In this document: piece after piece, positions 17,290 to 27,972 of the stretch
How positions within the stretch are numbered: the first letter of the stretch is position 1
Layout: each line of letters starts with the position of its first letter
DNA from: Haloarcula sp. H-GB4
GTDB taxonomy: Archaea; Halobacteriota; Halobacteria; Halobacteriales; Haloarculaceae
Direction: 5' to 3'
Assembly: GCF_030848575.1 (NCBI RefSeq)
Contig: NZ_JAVDDX010000004.1
Location: forward strand, 62,001 to 126,000
Length of the DNA: 64,000 nt
Notes under the pieces: model-generated
The model's database searches: none
Seen by the model: the letters and a program-made list of their open reading frames with translations, nothing else
Told to the model about the DNA's origin: nothing
Program-made: the position numbers and the translations under genes

Positions 17290-17450
17290 CCCGCGGTTTT
17301 AGTATAGCATTATGCAGTTTACCAAGTCCAGAATGTACAGTTCTCAGGTCGTTTAGTCCCTGAAACGGCGATATTCGGTTTTGTAGGTTGGGTTTGTATT
17401 ACGACAGTAAGCACCACCAGTTTTACCCGCACCGTCGCTGTATGGGAAGC

Positions 17451-18473
17451 ATGAATCGGCTTCCGCCTGAGTACGACGCTACTCCCGGGGATGATGCCCT
17501 CGAAGCAGCCATCGAAAAGCGACTGGTCGATATCGACTCCGGACGCTACCGAACGAACGTCGCGAGCGTGCTGCGGAAGTTCGCAGCGTGGAGTCGAGCC
17601 CAGCATGGCGTCACTGACCCCAAGGACATTGACGATGATCTCTGCCGGCAGTACGCTCGTGATCTAGCCCGAGCCGACGATCGGGACGATATCTCGCCGG
17701 AAACAGCACGGCGGTACTTCGCCTACGTCCGCTCGTTTCTCACCTGGGCCGTCTATGAGGGCCTGATACCGACGAATCCGGCCAAGACCAACCACGCCGA
17801 AGGTCCGCTTCCGACCGACGAGACAGAAACTGACCAACAGTACTGGACTGCACGGGACCGTGAAGCCATCTGTGCCACTGCGACCGCTCGTGTCGACGAC
17901 GCCGGTGAAAGCGACGGTGTCGACCGCACGGCGGCCTACCGCGACCAGGCACTCGTCTTCTTGCTCGCCTACTCTGGAGCCCGTAGCGCTGAACTCGTGG
18001 CCGTCTCCGATGACGAGGAACGGAACGGTCTACGGTGGCGTCACGTCAATCTTGATGCTGGCACGATGCAGGTGTTCGGCAAGAACCGGACTCGTGAGTC
18101 TGCACCCATCCTTGACGATGCACTTCGCCCACTCCGGCGCTGGAAGCAACTCCGAGAGCCTGACGAGAACGAGGCCGTGTTCCCCAGACTCGACAACGCG
18201 GCGAAAGCACTGGACCCAACGCCGTCGATCACAACCCAGTCAGCCCGAAACATCCTCGCCGACCTCTGTGAGTGGTCTGAGTATGACTTCGAGGAACCGC
18301 TGAAACCACACGGCGCTCGCCGTGGCCTCGGGCGAGAAATCTATCGCGAGAATCCACAGCTGGCTCAAGACATACTGCGGCACAAGTCCATCGAGACAAC
18401 ACACGAGGGCTATGCACAGGAGGCCGCGAAACGGACACGCGACGAAGCAAACGACATCATCTCCGGCGAGTAG
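17451..18473 (+). CDS. Tyrosine recombinase / phage-type integrase
   Basis: The 340-residue protein has an N-terminal SAM-like core-binding domain (about residues 15-115, with DISPETARRYFAYVRSFLTW) and a catalytic domain. The catalytic set is visible: Arg in YSGARSAELV (near 178), Lys in VFGKNRTRES, HxxR in KPHGARRG (near 285), the second His in ILRHKS and the nucleophile Tyr in HEGYAQE near the end. The protein is full length. In-frame ATGs also occur at 17442; I use 17451 because MNRLPPEY resembles other haloarchaeal XerC/D-like proteins. It lies next to half repeats, but no tRNA attachment site is recognised. Confidence 0.9.
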   Translation: MNRLPPEYDATPGDDALEAAIEKRLVDIDSGRYRTNVASVLRKFAAWSRAQHGVTDPKDIDDDLCRQYARDLARADDRDDISPETARRYFAYVRSFLTWAVYEGLIPTNPAKTNHAEGPLPTDETETDQQYWTARDREAICATATARVDDAGESDGVDRTAAYRDQALVFLLAYSGARSAELVAVSDDEERNGLRWRHVNLDAGTMQVFGKNRTRESAPILDDALRPLRRWKQLREPDENEAVFPRLDNAAKALDPTPSITTQSARNILADLCEWSEYDFEEPLKPHGARRGLGREIYRENPQLAQDILRHKSIETTHEGYAQEAAKRTRDEANDIISGE

Positions 18474-18933: not shown

Positions 18934-19704
18934 TTAATCAGCCGCCTGGCCACCGTCAACTGGTATCGTGACGCCAGTCACGAAGGAGGCATCCTCAGAG
19001 CAGAGGAACGCCACTACACTGGCCATTTCGGCCGGATCAGCGTTGCGACCCATCGGTACGTCCGACATGGCACTCGTATCGAACGGTAACTCACGAGGGT
19101 CCGATCCGCCTGCCATTGTCTCCTGGATATTCGTCTCCGTTGGCCCAGGTGCAATCGCATTGACACGGACGTCTCGGTTGGCATATTCGATGGCGGCCGT
19201 CTTCGTGAGACCCACGACGCCGTGTTTACTGGCGACGTAGTTGCCGAGTCCACCCATCCCGACGAGTCCTGCTTCGGAGGCTGTATTCACGATAACTCCT
19301 CCGCCCTGCTCTTCCATCACGGGCAACTGAGCTTTCATCCCCGCCCAGACCCCCTTTAGATTGATACCTATGAGCTGTTCCCAGTCGTCTTCATCGATAT
19401 CAGTAATATCCTGAAAGCCGGTGAGGATACCAGCGTTATTGTGGGCGATGTCGAGACTTCCGTACGTATCGATAGCGACCTCAACTACCCGCTGGACCGC
19501 TTCAGGGTCAGCAACGTTGGCTGATACGAAAGTGGCAGACCCACCGTCGGCCTCGATGGATGCAACCACGTCCTCTCCTCGATCGTCATCGATATCAGAG
19601 ACCACGACGTTCGCACCCTCGCTGGCGAGGCGCTCAGTTGTTGCACGTCCAATTCCTGATCCGGCTCCCGTTACGAGCGCTGTCTTGTCGGTAAATCGGT
19701 TCAT
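18934..19704 (-). CDS. Short-chain dehydrogenase/reductase (classical SDR)
   Basis: The 256-residue protein has the classical SDR landmarks: TGAGSGIGRA (NAD(P) loop, about residues 12-21), an acidic residue in VVVSDIDDD favouring NAD over NADP, NNAG near 90, Ser in VNTASEAG near 140, YVASK near 155 and PGPTET near 184. The C-terminus GVTIPVDGGQ is typical of 3-oxoacyl reductase-like SDRs. I start at the ATG at 19704. Substrate is unknown. It is the first gene of the oxidation cluster running to 26.7 kb, and could reduce or oxidise an aldehyde/alcohol intermediate. Confidence 0.9.
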   Translation of the reverse strand: MNRFTDKTALVTGAGSGIGRATTERLASEGANVVVSDIDDDRGEDVVASIEADGGSATFVSANVADPEAVQRVVEVAIDTYGSLDIAHNNAGILTGFQDITDIDEDDWEQLIGINLKGVWAGMKAQLPVMEEQGGGVIVNTASEAGLVGMGGLGNYVASKHGVVGLTKTAAIEYANRDVRVNAIAPGPTETNIQETMAGGSDPRELPFDTSAMSDVPMGRNADPAEMASVVAFLCSEDASFVTGVTIPVDGGQAAD

Positions 19705-19885
19705 AAGTGAACCTCCGCCAGGTATAAACAATCAATATAGGTATGTTCTGACCTGCTGGTTCTGTTGAATTTGGACGCTTACCGAATAGTTGTTTCAGGC
19801 GAACGACTCATTCACTGGAAAGACCCCATCACGGCCTGAAGCCCCAGTGTCGACGTGCTTGGGTCGATCTCAGGGAAAGTGGGGT

Positions 19886-20410
19886 CTACTCGACGACGAT
19901 GGCGCCTTTCATTCCGACTCCTTCGTGGGGAACACAAACGTATAGGACCATCTCGGGTCCCTCGAAGGTCTGTGTGTACGTTTCGCCAGCCGACGACTTC
20001 TGCTCGCTCTCAAAGTCGGCACCGTGCCGTGCCTCGACGTTGTGCACGCCACCCTGACCGGTCCACTCCCATGTGACCGTCGTGCCGGTGTCGATACGGA
20101 TTGCTGCTGGGTTGAAGCCGTAATACGCTCCGTTTGCCTCGACACCGACGTCGACCGTGACGGAATCGGTGCCAGTCTCGTCGGTGATCCCGTCGTAGTT
20201 GTTCGTCTGGGAGAGAAACTCGTCGACGGACGGAGCATCGTTTGACTCGGCGTGCGTGTCGGCGGATGTTGGCTCTGGCGACGCTGTGTCGTCACTGGCT
20301 TCGTCCGTGTTACTACTCGTCGAGCTATCGCCCCTACAACCGGCAATAGTACCAGCAACTGTGATCCCCGCGGTCCGAAGCAGTGTTCGTCGGTTGTATG
20401 GACCTGTCAT
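19886..20410 (-). CDS. Halocyanin-type blue copper lipoprotein
   Basis: The 174-residue protein begins with a twin-arginine signal (NRRTLLRTAG) and lipobox TIAGC near residue 23, so it is exported folded and anchored by a lipid on the cell surface. A Ser/Thr/Asp linker leads to one cupredoxin domain with copper ligands His in GGVHNVEA, Cys in YVCVPHEGVGMKG, and the His and Met of the same loop. Halocyanins carry single electrons at the membrane. It is divergent from the large lipoprotein at 20753, suggesting a shared job, perhaps as its electron acceptor (inference). Confidence 0.9.
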   Translation of the reverse strand: MTGPYNRRTLLRTAGITVAGTIAGCRGDSSTSSNTDEASDDTASPEPTSADTHAESNDAPSVDEFLSQTNNYDGITDETGTDSVTVDVGVEANGAYYGFNPAAIRIDTGTTVTWEWTGQGGVHNVEARHGADFESEQKSSAGETYTQTFEGPEMVLYVCVPHEGVGMKGAIVVE

Positions 20411-20752
20411 TGTCAACAGTGTGCACAAACGAGAGTACCCAAATATAGGTTATGGTGAGTGAATTATACTCTGAGATGATATTGGGCCCCTGTATTAGAG
20501 TGTGAACTTGTTTTTTCGAGGTTTTTGCAGTTACGTAGCGTACTTGTCGACAAAATCTAGTTTCAGACAGTCGTATCTTCGCCCGAGTAGTGAGATCCCC
20601 GTCTGAAACTGAGGTTGCATGCCAAGGTTAGGGATACCGTCGGCAAAAAGAGCCGTAAGATCCTGTCTGTCTGGTCAACACTAGCATGAGATCGGGGGTA
20701 TTAGTATCACCCCAATATATAAGTGACAGCTAATACCATAATGTGCTAGACT
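20411..20752. promoter_or_regulatory. Divergent intergenic region with an inverted repeat
   Basis: This 342-bp region separates the halocyanin and the 636-residue lipoprotein genes. It contains AGTTTCAGAC (20559-20568) and its exact complement GTCTGAAACT (20601-20610), the 14-mer TACTTGTCGACAAA at 20541-20554 that recurs at 26793, and a TATA-like CAATATATAAG near 20712-20722, about 30-40 nt before the lipoprotein ATG. Confidence 0.5.
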
Positions 20753-22663
20753 ATGACAGGCGATGACCTTCATGATAAAATTAGACAGTCGAGCCGCCGG
20801 AAATTTATTTCCGCGATGAGTGTCGTAACGGGTGTCTCACTCGCTGGGTGTAGCTTGAGCGATGACGGTAACGACGGCACGCCCACGGAGGCATCGGTAT
20901 CAAGCCAGACCACGGACGACACCGATGATGAACCCTCCGAGCCGCCTGAACCAGATGATCGGATCACGTCCGCGCGACGAATCGGTCCCCGCGATGTGAG
21001 TGACTTCGGGTTCGAAGATTTGTGGGCATACCGGAAGCGCCAGGCTGTCGAGGCGCTCGTCTCCGACCCACGGGTCAACGACGTTGCCAGCGACTGGGTC
21101 GCGTCCTTCGAGGCGTACGATCCCTTGACTAACCGGCTAGATGCCGTTAGCGTGCAAGGAACCACGGGGATGACCGTCGACGGGGGTCCCGACGACACGC
21201 CATTTGAGGTAACTGCAAAGAACCGCCAGGTTGCCTACGGACTCGTCCATCGGGTAACCGACGAGCTTGTCGCGCTGAAAATTAACGAACCGACCGATGT
21301 GACCTGGACCAGAGGCGACTGGGACGAGACCCAGCGGTCACGCCACGAGAAGATGCTGGAGAAAGAGGAAATCTGGCAACATCTCGAAGGGAAAGAGTGG
21401 TACCCGATGGTCAAGGCCGCCGAAATAATCACCAGCTACGGCGACTACGCCCACGGTGAAGTCTCCAACCTTGCGTACTTCGTGATGGACGAGGGTGAGC
21501 TCAAGGTTGTCAGCGGCTTCATGGACGTAACCGGCGAGGAAGCCGAGCTGCTTGACGTTCACATAGTCAACGACTTCGCTGAGCACCCGGCATACAGGAT
21601 AGCCCAGAACACCGGGACCGTAGGCGAATCTGTGTTGGGCGAAGTTCCGGAACCGCCGATGATGCAACGGCCACAGATTACGGCTCCCAACGGTTACCAC
21701 CGCATCGAAGAGCCGCCGAACGAGTTCGAACAGAACAGCTGGTCTATCAACTGGAGCGGACCTCGGACGGTCGGTGCGGAGGTGAGCGCGGACTTTAACG
21801 GCAAGCCGGTCTTCTCGTTGACCGCGCCGTTCAGTACCTCAACCTGTTATGACATGCCCAAGCGCAACGGTCGAAATACCCGTGAGTGGATGTTCCCGGA
21901 CAATGAACCGACCATCAGCGGTGAACTCCTCTACTGGGACATCCACAGCCTCAGCCTTGGCGGCCCCGGAATCCTCGGAAAGACCGAGTATCCCTCGACG
22001 CAGAGCCGTCCGGGTGGATTCAACATTCGCACCCACTATCACACTGGAGCCGTCCAAAACGCTCGTGACTTCCACTCCGGCCACCGCTTCGCACCATACA
22101 ACTACTACATCAACTACCAGTTCTACGAGGACGGCGTCTTCATGCCGGTGTTCCAACGGCATGGCCCTGGCTACGTCAACGAGTTCTACGAGTACCGCGA
22201 GCGCGAAAACGACGGCCCGGCGCAGTACTATCTAGAAAACTGGTTGACCAAACCGACGCCCGGGACCACAGACGGTGTCGAAACGAAACTCTTCGACGGC
22301 AATGAGTGGCAGATCCCCGAAAGCGAGTTCTACCTCGACAGTAACGATGTGAGCGAAGAGCACTTACTCCGGTTTACGAACCCAGACGGACCGGAGACTA
22401 TTGACATCCCGCTGGATAACCTGAAGGAAGTCGTGGTTGTCCGGCCTAAAGAGGATGAAATCGGGGAGGCGTTGCGCGTTATCGACGACGTGCAGGCAGA
22501 ACTTGGGTTCTACCACCCCGCGCAGTACGTTGACGACGAACCGATCCAGGGTGAGGAAGTCCTCTTCTGGCTTCTGATGGAGGCCCCAACTGATGAAGTT
22601 CCACACGCCTCGGGTATTACGACCTACACGCAGATGGGCGAATTCAACCTCAGCGGCTACTGA
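20753..22663 (+). CDS. Large Tat lipoprotein resembling copper amine oxidase
   Basis: The 636-residue protein has a twin-arginine signal (SSRRKFISAMS), lipobox VSLAGC near residue 32 and an acidic linker. The rest is a beta-rich extracellular protein. Three places recall copper amine oxidases: an N3-like stretch (DELVALKINEP near 168), NYYINYQFYEDG near 458 (compare the N-Y-D/E topaquinone motif and following FYxDG), and a C-terminal VPHASG near 620. However, the residue after the presumed topaquinone Tyr is Tyr rather than Asp/Glu, and I do not find a clear HxH copper pair after it; histidines instead cluster before it (THYHTG, DFHSGH). It may therefore be a divergent family member with another metal site, or unrelated. 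Neighbours (halocyanin, aldehyde dehydrogenases) support a role in oxidising amines or alcohols outside the cell. Confidence 0.45.
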   Translation: MTGDDLHDKIRQSSRRKFISAMSVVTGVSLAGCSLSDDGNDGTPTEASVSSQTTDDTDDEPSEPPEPDDRITSARRIGPRDVSDFGFEDLWAYRKRQAVEALVSDPRVNDVASDWVASFEAYDPLTNRLDAVSVQGTTGMTVDGGPDDTPFEVTAKNRQVAYGLVHRVTDELVALKINEPTDVTWTRGDWDETQRSRHEKMLEKEEIWQHLEGKEWYPMVKAAEIITSYGDYAHGEVSNLAYFVMDEGELKVVSGFMDVTGEEAELLDVHIVNDFAEHPAYRIAQNTGTVGESVLGEVPEPPMMQRPQITAPNGYHRIEEPPNEFEQNSWSINWSGPRTVGAEVSADFNGKPVFSLTAPFSTSTCYDMPKRNGRNTREWMFPDNEPTISGELLYWDIHSLSLGGPGILGKTEYPSTQSRPGGFNIRTHYHTGAVQNARDFHSGHRFAPYNYYINYQFYEDGVFMPVFQRHGPGYVNEFYEYRERENDGPAQYYLENWLTKPTPGTTDGVETKLFDGNEWQIPESEFYLDSNDVSEEHLLRFTNPDGPETIDIPLDNLKEVVVVRPKEDEIGEALRVIDDVQAELGFYHPAQYVDDEPIQGEEVLFWLLMEAPTDEVPHASGITTYTQMGEFNLSGY

Positions 22664-24177
22664 TCTTCGCCTAGATCCATCGTTATCGATTTCGTCTGGG
22701 TGTACTCCCGGAGTGTCTCCATCGCACCTTCTCGGCCGATGCCGGATTGTTTGTAGCCACCGAATGGCTGGCCGGCAGGCAGACGATTGAACGTATTGAC
22801 CCAGATGTTGCCGGCCTTAATGTCCGCTGCGATGCGGTGAGCAAAGGAAAGGTCATCAGTCACTACACCGGCAGCCAGGCCGTAATCGACGTTGTTCGCG
22901 CGTGCGACCATCTCGTCGTAGTCGTCCCATTCGAGCAGAACCTCGACGGGTCCGAAAATCTCCTGTGTCGCGACTGTGTTGTCGGCATCGATGTCAGCGA
23001 TGACGGTCGGTTCGACGAAACACCCCTCGGCTAGGATTCCCTCTTCAGCGGTTCCGCCGCCCCGAAGAATGTCCGCATCGGAATCTCTTGCCAAGCCGAT
23101 GTAATGGAGTGTCTTCTCGACTTCCGTACGGCTGACCTGTGGACCGATATCGGTGGCCGCGTTGAGCGGGTCACCCATCCGGAGCTGTCCGATGGCATCG
23201 AGAAACGCGTCAACGAACTCGTCCGCGCTGCTCTCGTGGACGAACAGCCGGGTCCCAGCACTACAGCACTCGCCACTGTTGAAGAACATCGCATCGACAG
23301 CGATCTCCGCAGCGTCGGTCGGGGCTGCATCTGGCGCGACGATGAGCGGACTCTTGCCGCCAAGTTCGAGTGTGATATCACTGATCGTGTTCGCGGCGGC
23401 TTTCATTACCCCTTGCCCCACTTCAGTCGACCCGGTGAAGGCCACCTTCGGGACCCGCTCGTGAGAGACCAGCGGCGCACCGGTCGCCGGGCCTGACCCT
23501 GTGACGACGTTGACCACGCCATCAGGTAACACATCCGCGACTTCGCGCATGTACGTCAGCAGGGAGGTAGGGGTCTGCTCAGCTGGTTTAAGCACAACCG
23601 TGTTGCCGGCGGCGAGTGCCGGCGCGAGTTTCCAGGTGGCCAGTAACAGCGGGAAGTTCCACGGCACGATCTGTCCGACGACACCGTACGGTTCTCGACG
23701 TGTCTGAACGTGTAACTCACCGTTCGGGACAGTTTTGCCTTCAATATTTCGAGCAGCGCCGGCGAAATATCGGAGATGGTCGACAGCGAGTTCAATATCC
23801 TCGCGGGCCTCTGTAATCGGCTTTCCGTTGTCTAGGACCTCGATACGTGCAAAGTCCTCTGCGCGCGCGTCGAGTCGGTCGGCCAGTGTCTGGAGTACCT
23901 GCTGTCGCTCCGCTGGCGTGGCTCCTGCCCACCGTTGTTCGTAGGCCTCCCAAGCGGCGTTGACCGCCCGGTCGACGTCCTCTTTGGTTCCCTCGTAGAC
24001 CCGAACGAGCGGCTCACCCGTGGTCGGATTGATCGATTCAAACGTGTTGTCGCCGCTTCCAGTAATCCACTCGCCACCGACAAAGTGTTTGAGCGGCCCC
24101 GACGGGAGCAACGAATCAGCGAGTGCTGCGTGCCGGTCTTTGATTCGCGCCGAATCTGTCTCTGTATGTGATGCCAT
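22657..24177 (-). CDS. NAD(P)-dependent aldehyde dehydrogenase
   Basis: The 506-residue enzyme has all class motifs: VPWNFPLLLATWKLAPALAAG near 164-184, FTGSTEVGQ near 242, catalytic Glu in LELGGKSP near 266, catalytic Cys in SGECCSAGTRLF near 300 and EIFGPV near 398. It oxidises an aldehyde to a carboxylate in the cytoplasm; the similarity is to betaine-aldehyde and gamma-aminobutyraldehyde type enzymes. It is convergent with the lipoprotein gene and the two stops overlap by 7 bp (22657-22663). A second enzyme of the family is encoded at 25157. Confidence 0.93.
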   Translation of the reverse strand: MASHTETDSARIKDRHAALADSLLPSGPLKHFVGGEWITGSGDNTFESINPTTGEPLVRVYEGTKEDVDRAVNAAWEAYEQRWAGATPAERQQVLQTLADRLDARAEDFARIEVLDNGKPITEAREDIELAVDHLRYFAGAARNIEGKTVPNGELHVQTRREPYGVVGQIVPWNFPLLLATWKLAPALAAGNTVVLKPAEQTPTSLLTYMREVADVLPDGVVNVVTGSGPATGAPLVSHERVPKVAFTGSTEVGQGVMKAAANTISDITLELGGKSPLIVAPDAAPTDAAEIAVDAMFFNSGECCSAGTRLFVHESSADEFVDAFLDAIGQLRMGDPLNAATDIGPQVSRTEVEKTLHYIGLARDSDADILRGGGTAEEGILAEGCFVEPTVIADIDADNTVATQEIFGPVEVLLEWDDYDEMVARANNVDYGLAAGVVTDDLSFAHRIAADIKAGNIWVNTFNRLPAGQPFGGYKQSGIGREGAMETLREYTQTKSITMDLGEDQ

Positions 24178-24248
24178 TCTAACCCTGCTGACACATGGGA
24201 TACAGTGGTGTCCTTACACACACTCGGTAAGCAACCAGAATAAGCGTT

Positions 24249-24845
24249 TCACTGGTTTACCGAGACTCGGTCAGTTTCTTCCTGCTCGCCAGGGTCCTGT
24301 TCTACGTCCCCAAGATACTCCTCACCTCCCATGTCACGTAGCAAGTCGTTAAAGATGGCTGCCGCCGTTTCGAACTTGTGGACTGCCGGGAGCGCCGTCT
24401 TGTCGATTTGCGCGATGAAGTCACCGTATTCCTTGACAAAGTCGTGACGCCACGCCTCACTCTGCTCTGGTGAGGGAAATTGTGCGACGAACTGCCACTC
24501 GTGGTAGTCGTCAGCGCTGACGAAGAATATTACGTGTGGGTCGTCAAGTAACCGTTCGTAGCATCTCTCCCAATTCTCATCAAAATTCGAATAATGAAAG
24601 GCAACCTGGAAAAGATAGTATTCGAAGATGTTGTGGTTCGGGATTGCACGCATCGAGAACACATTCTCGTCGTGCATCTCATTTAGAATTTCGTTCACCC
24701 GATTGTGTGACAGTGAGATATCGAACTCTTCTTCCAAGATGTCTCGAAGTTTACTGGCAGGCTTCTCGGGATATTTAACCCTCGCCTTAAGTATAGCCAC
24801 ATCGCGGGGTGAAAGATCGAATTCGAAATCGTTCCCGTTGATCAT
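24249..24845 (-). CDS. Winged-helix regulator of haloarchaeal type
   Basis: The 198-residue protein starts with a helix-turn-helix in SPRDVAILKARVKYPEKPAS and the recognition part FDISLSHNRVNEILNEMHDE (about residues 45-64), an Lrp/AsnC-like winged helix. The C-terminal part (HVIFFVSADDYHEWQFVAQF onwards) is an alpha/beta domain that could bind a small molecule. It lies between two aldehyde dehydrogenase genes, divergent from the second, so it probably controls this cluster. I recognise no named family. Confidence 0.7.
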   Translation of the reverse strand: MINGNDFEFDLSPRDVAILKARVKYPEKPASKLRDILEEEFDISLSHNRVNEILNEMHDENVFSMRAIPNHNIFEYYLFQVAFHYSNFDENWERCYERLLDDPHVIFFVSADDYHEWQFVAQFPSPEQSEAWRHDFVKEYGDFIAQIDKTALPAVHKFETAAAIFNDLLRDMGGEEYLGDVEQDPGEQEETDRVSVNQ

Positions 24846-25156
24846 TGTATTCTGTTATCTCTTTTTACGGTCCGCAATCGCAATAAATGTTCTCCACCTA
24901 TGTTATAGGCGAATCTATATGATTGAATATAATACTACATTCCGTTTTTATCCCAGCATGAAGGGATTTAGCAGCGTTTTACGGCCTCTAGTGTAAACAA
25001 AAGTATCATATCTCGCCTTGGTTGTAATAGTTATACAACACACCCACTGAGGGAAAAATGTGATAGTCTCATTTCTGCGTCGTATTGATGTTGGAGTATA
25101 ATGTCTTTTCAGTTAACTATTTACTATCGCATGGCAAATATTGACACTGCCCTATC
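24846..25156. promoter_or_regulatory. Divergent promoter region, regulator / aldehyde dehydrogenase
   Basis: The 311-bp region is AT-rich and without genes. Outward promoters are expected on both sides. TTTACTATC lies about 30 nt before the ATG at 25157 and could be its TATA element. I see no clear palindrome. Confidence 0.35.
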
Positions 25157-26689
25157 ATGAGTACAGCCAGTGACGATTCCACAGAGACGAATAGTAAAAT
25201 CAAACAACGTCACCGGGAGGCCGCTTCAGACGCGGTCCCGGACACCCTCAACCACTACATCGGTGGTGAGTTTGTCAGTGGCGACAGCGACGACAGAATC
25301 GAGACCAAGGACCCAACGACAGGTGAAGTGCTCGGTGAGGTGCCAGCAGGAAACCCAAACGACATTGACAGCGCTGTTGAGGCGGCACAGGAGGCGTTCG
25401 ACGAAGGGTGGAAGGATGCATCACCGGGTGAGCGCCAGCGAGTACTCTCGGATATGGCGCGAGCTGTCGAAGAGAACCAGGAGATGCTCGCGACGCTCGA
25501 AGTACTCGACACTGGGAAGACGATTACCGAAGCGATGGGTGACATGGGGCTTGTCATCGACCACCTCACCTATTACGCTGCCGCGGCCCGCAACGTCAAT
25601 GGCGAGACGCGCCAGACGAACGACCTCTTCAATCGTGAGAAACAAGTTCTCACGGTCAAGGAACCATACGGCGTCGTCGGCGCGATCGTGCCGTGGAACT
25701 TCCCGCTGCTCATTGCGGTCTGGAAACTCGGTCCTGCCATCGCCGCCGGTAACACGGTGGTCCTCAAACCGTCCGAGGAGACGCCGCTGTCGATTCTGCA
25801 GCTGATGGAGCTTGTCGACGATACGGTTCCGGACGGTGTTATCAACGTCGTCACCGGCTACGGTGAAGATGCCGGTGAACCCCTCTCAACCCATGCGGAC
25901 GTGCCCAAAATTTCTTTCACAGGGTCGACGGAAGTTGGAAAAGAGATTATCCGAAGCTCCGCAGAGGACATCAAGAAAACAACGCTCGAACTGGGTGGGA
26001 AAAGCCCCATTATCGTCTATCCGGACGCCAACCTCGAAGAGGCGGTCGAGGCAGCCATGATGGCCATCTTCTTCAACAAGGGCGAGTGCTGTGCCGCCGG
26101 CTCCCGACTGTTCGTCCACGAGGACATCGAGGAGCAATTCCTCGAGGCGTTCACTAACGCCGCAGCGGGCATGACTGTCGGTGACCCGCTACTGGAAGAG
26201 ACAGACATGGGACCGAAAGTCTCTGACGAGCAGGTCGAACGAACAAACGAGTTCGTCGAAGCCGCCCGCGAAAGCGGTGCGACCATCCGAACAGGCGGCC
26301 ACAAACCTGACGACGAGTCGCTCGCTGACGGTGCGTTCTATGAACCGACCATCATCGACGACATCGACCACGACCACCCATCGGTTCAGGAGGAAATCTT
26401 CGGCCCCGTCATGGAGACGTTCTCCTGGAGTGACGAAGACGACGTGGTTGCACTGGCCAACGACGTCGACTACGGACTGGCTGCCGGTGTCATTGCAAAT
26501 GACATCACGAAGGCGCTCCGAACCGCGCGCCGCCTCGAAGCTGGCGTCGTTTGGGTAAACCACTACAACGACGTTTCTGCCGGCCAGCCCTTCGGCGGCT
26601 ACAAGCAGTCCGGTTCCGGCCGCGAGAACGCCATGGAAGCCATCGACGAGTTTACCCAAACCAAGGCAATCAACGTCAACCTCGGTTGA
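25157..26689 (+). CDS. Aldehyde dehydrogenase, second copy
   Basis: The 510-residue enzyme aligns along its length with the one at 22657 and keeps the same catalytic residues: Glu in LELGGKSPIIV near 268, Cys in KGECCAAGSRLF near 302, and VPWNFPLLIAVWKLGPAIAAG, FTGSTEVGKE and EEIFGPV. The N-terminus is more acidic. Two related enzymes flanking one regulator suggest different substrates or different induction rather than simple redundancy. Transcription is divergent from the regulator gene. Confidence 0.93.
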   Translation: MSTASDDSTETNSKIKQRHREAASDAVPDTLNHYIGGEFVSGDSDDRIETKDPTTGEVLGEVPAGNPNDIDSAVEAAQEAFDEGWKDASPGERQRVLSDMARAVEENQEMLATLEVLDTGKTITEAMGDMGLVIDHLTYYAAAARNVNGETRQTNDLFNREKQVLTVKEPYGVVGAIVPWNFPLLIAVWKLGPAIAAGNTVVLKPSEETPLSILQLMELVDDTVPDGVINVVTGYGEDAGEPLSTHADVPKISFTGSTEVGKEIIRSSAEDIKKTTLELGGKSPIIVYPDANLEEAVEAAMMAIFFNKGECCAAGSRLFVHEDIEEQFLEAFTNAAAGMTVGDPLLEETDMGPKVSDEQVERTNEFVEAARESGATIRTGGHKPDDESLADGAFYEPTIIDDIDHDHPSVQEEIFGPVMETFSWSDEDDVVALANDVDYGLAAGVIANDITKALRTARRLEAGVVWVNHYNDVSAGQPFGGYKQSGSGRENAMEAIDEFTQTKAINVNLG

Positions 26690-27237: not shown

Positions 27238-27972
27238 ATGTACACAGTCGCAGATTTACCTATCGATAACCAACTCCAGACCGTCGAATACGATCTTGAG
27301 CTTGAATCGGCGCTTCGTCGGATGTTTGAGAATAGCTACACGCAAATCGGTGTTGAGCGGGATGGCGAATTAGTTGGGATTGTCACCTACCGGTCAGTCG
27401 TCCGGACACTCCTTGCGTTCCACCAGCTAGAGGTCGGGCACAAAACACTGGACAAGATATCAGTCGGGGCAGCAGTTGAAGATGCACACACAATCAGTGA
27501 GGATGAGAACCTCCTCGGGATATTCGATGCACTCGCGGAATACACGTATATCGTGATCAGTCGAGACGATGAGTGGCGTATTCTGACTGACTACGATCTT
27601 CTAACGCGGCTAAAACAAATGCTCGAGCCGTTTTTGTTGATTGAGTCGATCGAAATGCGGTTGCGGGAGATTTTCATACGAGTGTTTGGCGATTCGCTGT
27701 CGGAGCAGTTAGCAGAGACATTTGACGATGATCATCCACTGCCAACGCCGGCGTCGGTCGAACATTGTAGCTACGCACACTATGCCCAGTTCATTTCTAT
27801 TCACTGGGAGGAATTTGAATCGCTTTTCGATGATCAACAGGATGTGATTCGTGAGTTGGTGCTTGAAATCGGGGATATGCGAAATCAGCTCTTCCACTTT
27901 CGAGTCGACAATCCGGACGAGTTTGATCGAGATCTACTCCGTTTCGGCCAGTCGTACTTTTCTTCAGTGTGA
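27238..27972 (+). CDS. CBS-domain protein with HEPN-like C-terminus
   Basis: The 244-residue protein has two CBS-like repeats (about residues 1-65, with QIGVERDGELVGIVTYRSVV, and 70-130, with TYIVISRDDEWRILTDYDLL), which usually bind adenine nucleotides. The C-terminal 110 residues are helical and contain RNQLFHFR near residue 220, matching the R-x4-H pattern of HEPN ribonucleases and related proteins. A TATA-like TAGTTATC sits about 30 nt before the ATG, giving a leaderless start. This fusion suggests a nucleotide-sensing effector, but no antitoxin or partner gene is adjacent. Confidence 0.7.
   Translation: MYTVADLPIDNQLQTVEYDLELESALRRMFENSYTQIGVERDGELVGIVTYRSVVRTLLAFHQLEVGHKTLDKISVGAAVEDAHTISEDENLLGIFDALAEYTYIVISRDDEWRILTDYDLLTRLKQMLEPFLLIESIEMRLREIFIRVFGDSLSEQLAETFDDDHPLPTPASVEHCSYAHYAQFISIHWEEFESLFDDQQDVIRELVLEIGDMRNQLFHFRVDNPDEFDRDLLRFGQSYFSSV

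Follow-up and report, generated by a model that had tools for sequence, protein, structure and literature searches.

The window, by which we mean the whole stretch of 64,000 nucleotides of Haloarcula sp. H-GB4 that was analysed, encodes a Tat lipoprotein of 636 aa (20753-22663, forward strand) that is predicted to have the scaffold of a copper amine oxidase (CuAO), yet does not qualify as one. We do not file it as a CuAO because the copper triad, the consensus around the precursor tyrosine and the Pfam model were all tested, and none of them was found in it. As read from the aligned sequences, the canonical copper site is gone, and two active-site tyrosines of CuAOs remain. CuAOs generate topaquinone from a tyrosine within this fold by means of copper and O2. 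A family retaining fold and tyrosines yet devoid of the copper ligands offers a natural experiment on what the fold is capable of in the absence of copper. The fold and the halocyanin gene beside it hint at an altered extracellular oxidation, and the reading that we tentatively favour, plausible though somewhat short of probable, is that the lipoprotein would be an extracytoplasmic redox enzyme on a CuAO scaffold, with a rebuilt site, serving the halocyanin.

The gene cluster and the lipoprotein family

The five genes of the cluster are complete and real, and open reading frames and profiles confirmed the layout given in the preliminary description, namely a halocyanin, the lipoprotein and two aldehyde dehydrogenases around one regulator. 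The halocyanin, a type-1 copper protein of 180 aa with a Tat lipoprotein leader, is encoded at 19886-20428 on the reverse strand (TIGR03102, E 1.7e-47; PF00127, 1.1e-14), with ATG at 20410 a likelier start than TTG at 20428. It exceeds the curated TIGR03102 cut-off (160.2 vs 93.8 bits) and is an ordinary member, unremarkable in sequence, whose location beside the lipoprotein is the point. The intergenic region between these two divergent genes, taken from the gene coordinates, is 20429-20752. The lipoprotein, assigned by its open reading frame, an AlphaFold2 model, Foldseek and VIA searches and profile alignment, has a leader (SRRKFI...LAGC) in which a Tat signal and a lipobox were recognised by inspection.

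Aldehyde dehydrogenase 1 (22657-24177, reverse strand, 506 aa; PF00171, 5.2e-163, 543 bits) is convergent with the lipoprotein gene and the two stop codons overlap. It is followed by the helix-turn-helix regulator (24249-24845, reverse strand, 198 aa; weak HTH_32 and HTH_33 matches only), which lies between the two dehydrogenases, and by aldehyde dehydrogenase 2 (25157-26689, forward strand, 510 aa; PF00171, 1.1e-171, 572 bits). With the halocyanin divergent and aldehyde dehydrogenase 1 convergent, no neighbour is in an obvious operon with the lipoprotein, and the link between them is therefore one of neighbourhood only. Both dehydrogenases belong to the superfamily (PF00171 over its cut-off), carry the catalytic Cys and Glu by inspection and are about 53% identical to each other. 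For aldehyde dehydrogenase 1, no NCBIfam equivalog among the 25 matches listed reached its cut-off, and the best scores of the phenylacetaldehyde and betaine-aldehyde dehydrogenase equivalogs were under theirs (e.g. 504.5 vs 593).

Three further genes adjoin or lie close to the cluster. A short-chain dehydrogenase (18934-19731) adjoins the halocyanin and is absent from the other family loci by tblastn, and a CBS domain is encoded at 27238-27972, with a weak match to a Swt1-like HEPN domain after it. An integrase gene resembling a tyrosine recombinase by its look is found at 17388-18473. Plasmid pHsi540 of Haloarcula sinaiiensis carries the cluster, a plasmid of Halorubrum sp. PV6 carries the lipoprotein, and given the integrase-like gene and the plasmid copies, the cluster may be mobile.

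The source genome has a single full copy of the lipoprotein, and no ordinary CuAO (PF01179) was found in it; the closest named relative is that of Haloarcula sebkhae JCM 19018 (99%). Scanning a single genome for each species recovered four loci, all in haloarchaea. When 392 genomes of the order were searched with a profile, 59 places in 50 genomes matched at E < 1e-30 (counted from the listing), and further weak matches were mostly to the Tat leader only. Among 392 genomes sampled across the phylum, seven had a family match at E up to 1e-15, all of them in the same order, and the family is so far haloarchaeal. It is patchy within the genus, where the order-wide search found the lipoprotein in 3 of 26 genomes. 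Six plasmid records carry a relative, including the two plasmids named above, and where these relatives are annotated they are called 'hypothetical protein'. The family alignment comprised 57 members; three partial ones (the second copy of G688, G475 and G499) were omitted, and a locus identical to a named one was not entered again. Genes around the loci were called by a composition rule, with antisense errors present, e.g. near L098-L100 and L119. Searches of Pfam (E up to 10), NCBIfam and PHROGs with the lipoprotein gave no match, phmmer and profile searches of PDB sequences gave at most chance rows, and the family was named in no title or abstract opening found in the open-licence literature. 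These results hint that the family is so far unstudied, and no member is characterised.

Predicted fold and alignment to the CuAO active site

With the 57 relatives aligned, AlphaFold2 gave a model of the lipoprotein with a pLDDT of 85 and a pTM of 0.84. Among the matches listed, 50 of 50 were CuAOs both by Foldseek (E 2.4e-13 to 1.5e-11, identity 8-13%) and by VIA-align (Z 22.0 to 19.1), and the best VIA match (Z 22.0, rmsd 4.0, 329 aligned) covered model residues 190-636, corresponding to the CuAO D3-D4 fold. The Foldseek TM-scores were merely 0.30-0.46, therefore domain placement differs from that of CuAOs. An earlier model built on 10 sequences had a low pLDDT of 53, and its sole Foldseek match under E 0.001 was the E. 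coli amine oxidase. The preliminary description had seen features of copper amine oxidases in this protein and called for a structure prediction; the fold returned is not an unrelated one, and its Foldseek and VIA matches agree with that relation. The predicted model supports a relation to CuAOs by fold, beyond the reach of the sequence searches tried.

For profile-profile alignment (hhalign), we used a reference of 12 CuAOs including E. coli TynA (ECAO). Four MAFFT modes and hhalign agreed in placing topaquinone 466 of ECAO on Y449 of the lipoprotein and the copper ligands H524, H526 and H689 on A490, Y492 and T613, respectively. By hhalign, moreover, ECAO Y369 fell on Y366, N465 on P448, D467 on N450 and Y468 on Y451. 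The catalytic base, ECAO D383, was aligned to P382 by hhalign, beside D383 and N384 of the lipoprotein, and to M380 or N384 by the MAFFT modes; an Asp occupies lipoprotein position 383 or 384 in 56/57 members. The hhalign score of the family against CuAOs was 30.8 (E 0.013), which none of 100 column-shuffled CuAO alignments reached (<= 29.2), while HHsuite's own probability was 0.7-3.4%, which is no proof of homology at the sequence level. Since this probability is low, the active-site register leans on a weak profile score together with the fold. The unrelated DUF7405 family scored higher against the lipoproteins (53.9) than CuAOs did, because the Tat leaders align (residues 20-50). Global hhalign modes produced no useful alignment of the family with CuAOs.

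The lipoprotein resembles CuAOs (EC 1.4.3.21; E. coli TynA, Arthrobacter AGAO; PF01179) in the predicted D3-D4 fold over residues 190-636 and in the tyrosines at the topaquinone and Tyr369 positions, and an Asp next to the catalytic-base position may be a further likeness. It differs from them in having no copper-His triad, no T-x-x-N-Y-D/E and no PF01179 match, in being a Tat lipoprotein and in its halocyanin neighbour.

Copper ligands, tyrosines and histidines across the family

None of the 57 members has His at copper-ligand positions 490 and 613 (0/57), and position 492 is His in 23/57 and Tyr in the window protein. Likewise, an HxH 20-110 residues after Tyr451 was found in 0/57 members, whereas 7/7 haloarchaeal CuAOs have one 51-54 residues after the topaquinone Tyr; the absence of the usual HxH, noted earlier for the window protein, thus extends to the whole family. 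Could the lipoprotein be an ordinary CuAO whose ligands were misaligned? The strong fold match to CuAOs would fit, but the absent HxH contradicts it, and PF01179 matched 0/10 members scanned at E up to 10, though it finds true CuAOs in 6/392 genomes of the phylum sample. We set this explanation aside as very improbable.

The codons for residues 438-464, the region of the topaquinone motif by alignment columns, lie at 22064-22144 on the forward strand and include D439, H441, P448-Y449-N450-Y451 and D460-G461, with H428 and H430 just upstream. Y366 is present in 52/57 members (a gap in 5), and Y449 and Y451 in 51/57 each. According to a review, the CuAO consensus around the precursor Tyr is T-x-x-N-Y-D/E, and topaquinone formation in CuAOs needs a metal, naturally copper (PMC3382800). 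The flank here reads R445-F-A-P448-Y449-N450, outside this consensus, and, since the copper site is gone, any quinone in this family must form otherwise. The preliminary description had also reported a non-standard residue after the topaquinone Tyr. This holds for Tyr451, followed by Tyr452 in the window protein, but the profile alignment puts the topaquinone at Tyr449, and the residue after that is Asn450. Position 452 is Asp in 20/57 members and Tyr in 19 (the window's group). By motif (N-Y-D), Tyr451 is a possible topaquinone position; as a choice made from N-Y-D alone it was set aside, since the four MAFFT modes and hhalign favour Tyr449.

The histidines before the motif, to which attention had been drawn earlier, are indeed conserved: H398 in 52/57, H428 and H430 in 51/57 each and H441 in 48/57 members. 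Together with Y366, D439, Y449, Y451 and H588 they form a dense set of conserved polar residues. One may ask, along the lines of the preliminary description, whether the lipoprotein is a quinoprotein with a relocated metal site, in which His398, His428, His430 and His441 (or His588) would bind a metal, a topaquinone-like cofactor would form from Tyr449 or Tyr451, and amines would be oxidised with halocyanin or O2 as acceptor. The retention of the four candidate histidines, each in 48-52 of the 57, is in its favour, as are Asp452 after Asn450-Tyr451 in 20/57 and the alignment of Y451 with ECAO Y468. This residue is separated from the precursor Tyr by two positions, as is HPAO-1 Tyr407, assigned by the same review to the O2 pocket of biogenesis (PMC3382800). 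Five distant members that retain Y449 and Y451, however, have H428 and H441 replaced. Further, no precedent is known to us for a topaquinone-like cofactor that arises in the absence of the canonical copper site, and we consider the relocated metal site doubtful, ranking it as a rival after the one discussed below.

Six members (L049, L093, L095, L096, L097 and L103) carry Ser or Thr in place of Tyr449 and His in place of Tyr451, and in the tree a branch supported at 100/99-100 separates them from the rest. Among the 143 columns that the 46 core members conserve, 12 differ in every one of the six (115, 221, 374, 430, 440, 448, 449, 451, 493, 514, 571 and 594), so that H430, P448, Y449, Y451 and Y493 are lost jointly, as expected if these residues act together. 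Within 428-453, a range chosen post hoc, 5 of 14 conserved columns are among those lost (hypergeometric P 0.002). The five distant members, in which H428 and H441 are replaced, retain H430, P448, Y449 and Y451. From this pattern of substitutions, we infer that H430, Y449, Y451 and Y493 probably form one functional site. As six members lack the tyrosines, the scaffold has a tyrosine-independent role in at least this clade.

The serious and main rival to our preferred reading is a non-catalytic descendant, i.e., a CuAO scaffold turned into a protein for binding, scaffolding or partnering at the surface, its conserved residues maintaining the fold or a pocket for a ligand. It would account for the loss of the copper-His positions and of the T-x-x-N-Y-D/E flanks, for the six tyrosine-less members (6/57), which are still open frames, and for the Pro aligned to the general-base position. 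On the other hand, a dense polar set is conserved (Y366, H398, H428, H430, D439, H441, Y449, Y451 and H588) and two different redox-type partners are retained by clade, and we hold such a descendant to be possible, though on the unlikely side.

Beside the tyrosine-less clade only, we also observed tandem Tat-leader proteins of about 168 aa, with no recognised Pfam domain, encoded upstream in three divergent copies in L049, L093, L095, L096 and L103; two copies were called in L097.

Partner genes and the proposed electron transfer

A halocyanin gene adjoins 13/57 family members, all of one clade (the window's and 12 others; 1.6 kb away in L044), which supports the earlier proposal of halocyanin as the partner. 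All 13 are within the 19 members with Tyr452; the remaining six of these 19 have no halocyanin within their flanks and the other 38 members have none within about 7 kb. The pair is retained down to 55% lipoprotein identity, and, with 12 halocyanin-type matches, 8 of them over the cut-off, in the 4.19 Mb of the source genome, chance adjacency is improbable. On the tree, the halocyanin label requires one change among labelled rows, with six unlabelled rows inside the group. In the halocyanin tree, in which the second, non-adjacent halocyanin of L106 was given its own row, 11 of the 13 neighbours were grouped (81/79), with L046 and L111 outside, and the branching order of the 11 was broadly like that of the lipoproteins.

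The sister clade has another partner, which is absent from the window. A DUF7405 gene lies directly downstream in 17/57 members, which is every member of this clade (16 by gene call and L119 by tblastn; L047, L048, L078, L081, L082, L084-L087 and L116-L123). One of these neighbours is named Dyp-type peroxidase by NCBI, and Dyp_perox_C gave a sub-threshold match in one of three members scanned (18.4 vs 20 bits). In the DUF7405 alignment, the position of the DyP motif GxxDG reads GFRSG or GFRAG, i.e., Ser or Ala at the distal Asp position.

These neighbours also bear on copper or redox-stress handling, in which the lipoprotein would be a copper-sensing or copper-storing partner of the halocyanin and not an oxidoreductase. 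In the window's clade the most constant neighbour is a copper protein, and conserved histidines are available, but in the sister clade a DyP-like protein stands in its place and no copper transporter or chaperone was recognised among the recurring neighbours, whose families are partly identified; such a role appears improbable.

Returning to the redox enzyme that we favour, we picture a haloarchaeal family with a CuAO scaffold that has lost its three-histidine copper site and retains buried tyrosines (366, 449 and 451), along with an acidic residue close to where the catalytic base falls. The lipoprotein would act outside the cell membrane, more as a dehydrogenase than as an oxidase that uses O2. 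A rebuilt site (Tyr449, Tyr451, Tyr493, His430 and perhaps a metal), with a putative tyrosine-based cofactor, would take electrons from a small substrate and may pass them to the divergently encoded halocyanin, which in the sister clade would be replaced as partner by the DyP-like protein. Such transfer has a counterpart in methylamine dehydrogenase and amicyanin, a pair in which the quinoprotein dehydrogenase reduces a blue copper protein; for the lipoprotein we likewise propose an extracytoplasmic electron acceptor that is a type-1 copper protein. Methylamine dehydrogenase differs in its fold and in its tryptophan-derived cofactor, and the cofactor and the transfer remain putative for the lipoprotein. 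Further, the exchange of halocyanin for a DyP-like protein by clade leads to a testable prediction on haloarchaeal electron acceptors. In its boldest form, which we consider unlikely, though not negligibly so, the proposal would be a CuAO-fold family that forms its redox cofactor from tyrosine although the canonical copper site is lacking, acting as a dehydrogenase to halocyanin and paired with a DyP-like protein in the sister clade. It would be a third way to oxidise amines or similar compounds extracellularly, next to CuAOs, which use O2, and to amine dehydrogenases linked to cupredoxins.

The two aldehyde dehydrogenases had been expected to finish the oxidation inside the cell. This single pathway now appears weak: they stand beside 7/57 lipoproteins (both at six loci and one at the seventh), and a regulator relative with aldehyde dehydrogenases occurs without the lipoprotein at 8/30 regulator loci (L130-L137; flank about 1.5 kb). 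The dehydrogenases of these eight loci are 56-64% identical to aldehyde dehydrogenase 1, and their genomes gave no match to the family profile or a weak leader-type match only. Orthologues of the regulator (78-95%) lie beside the same genes in L004, L005, L108, L110 and L045. As members of a fixed system the dehydrogenases were rejected, being missing at 6/13 halocyanin-linked loci and occurring with the regulator separately. The low co-occurrence and the lipoprotein-free loci indicate that they are a module of their own, which became linked to the lipoprotein within part of a single clade. In E. coli, the genes for the CuAO, an aldehyde dehydrogenase and a regulator are also neighbours (tynA-feaB-feaR), a likeness that keeps the earlier pathway idea alive, and in the minority of loci that have them, the dehydrogenases may use the lipoprotein's product.

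Finally, a glucose/sorbosone dehydrogenase family protein is encoded directly downstream of a distant member of the lipoprotein family at 8976-10085 of L101 (PF07995, 1.7e-68), and likewise in L102.
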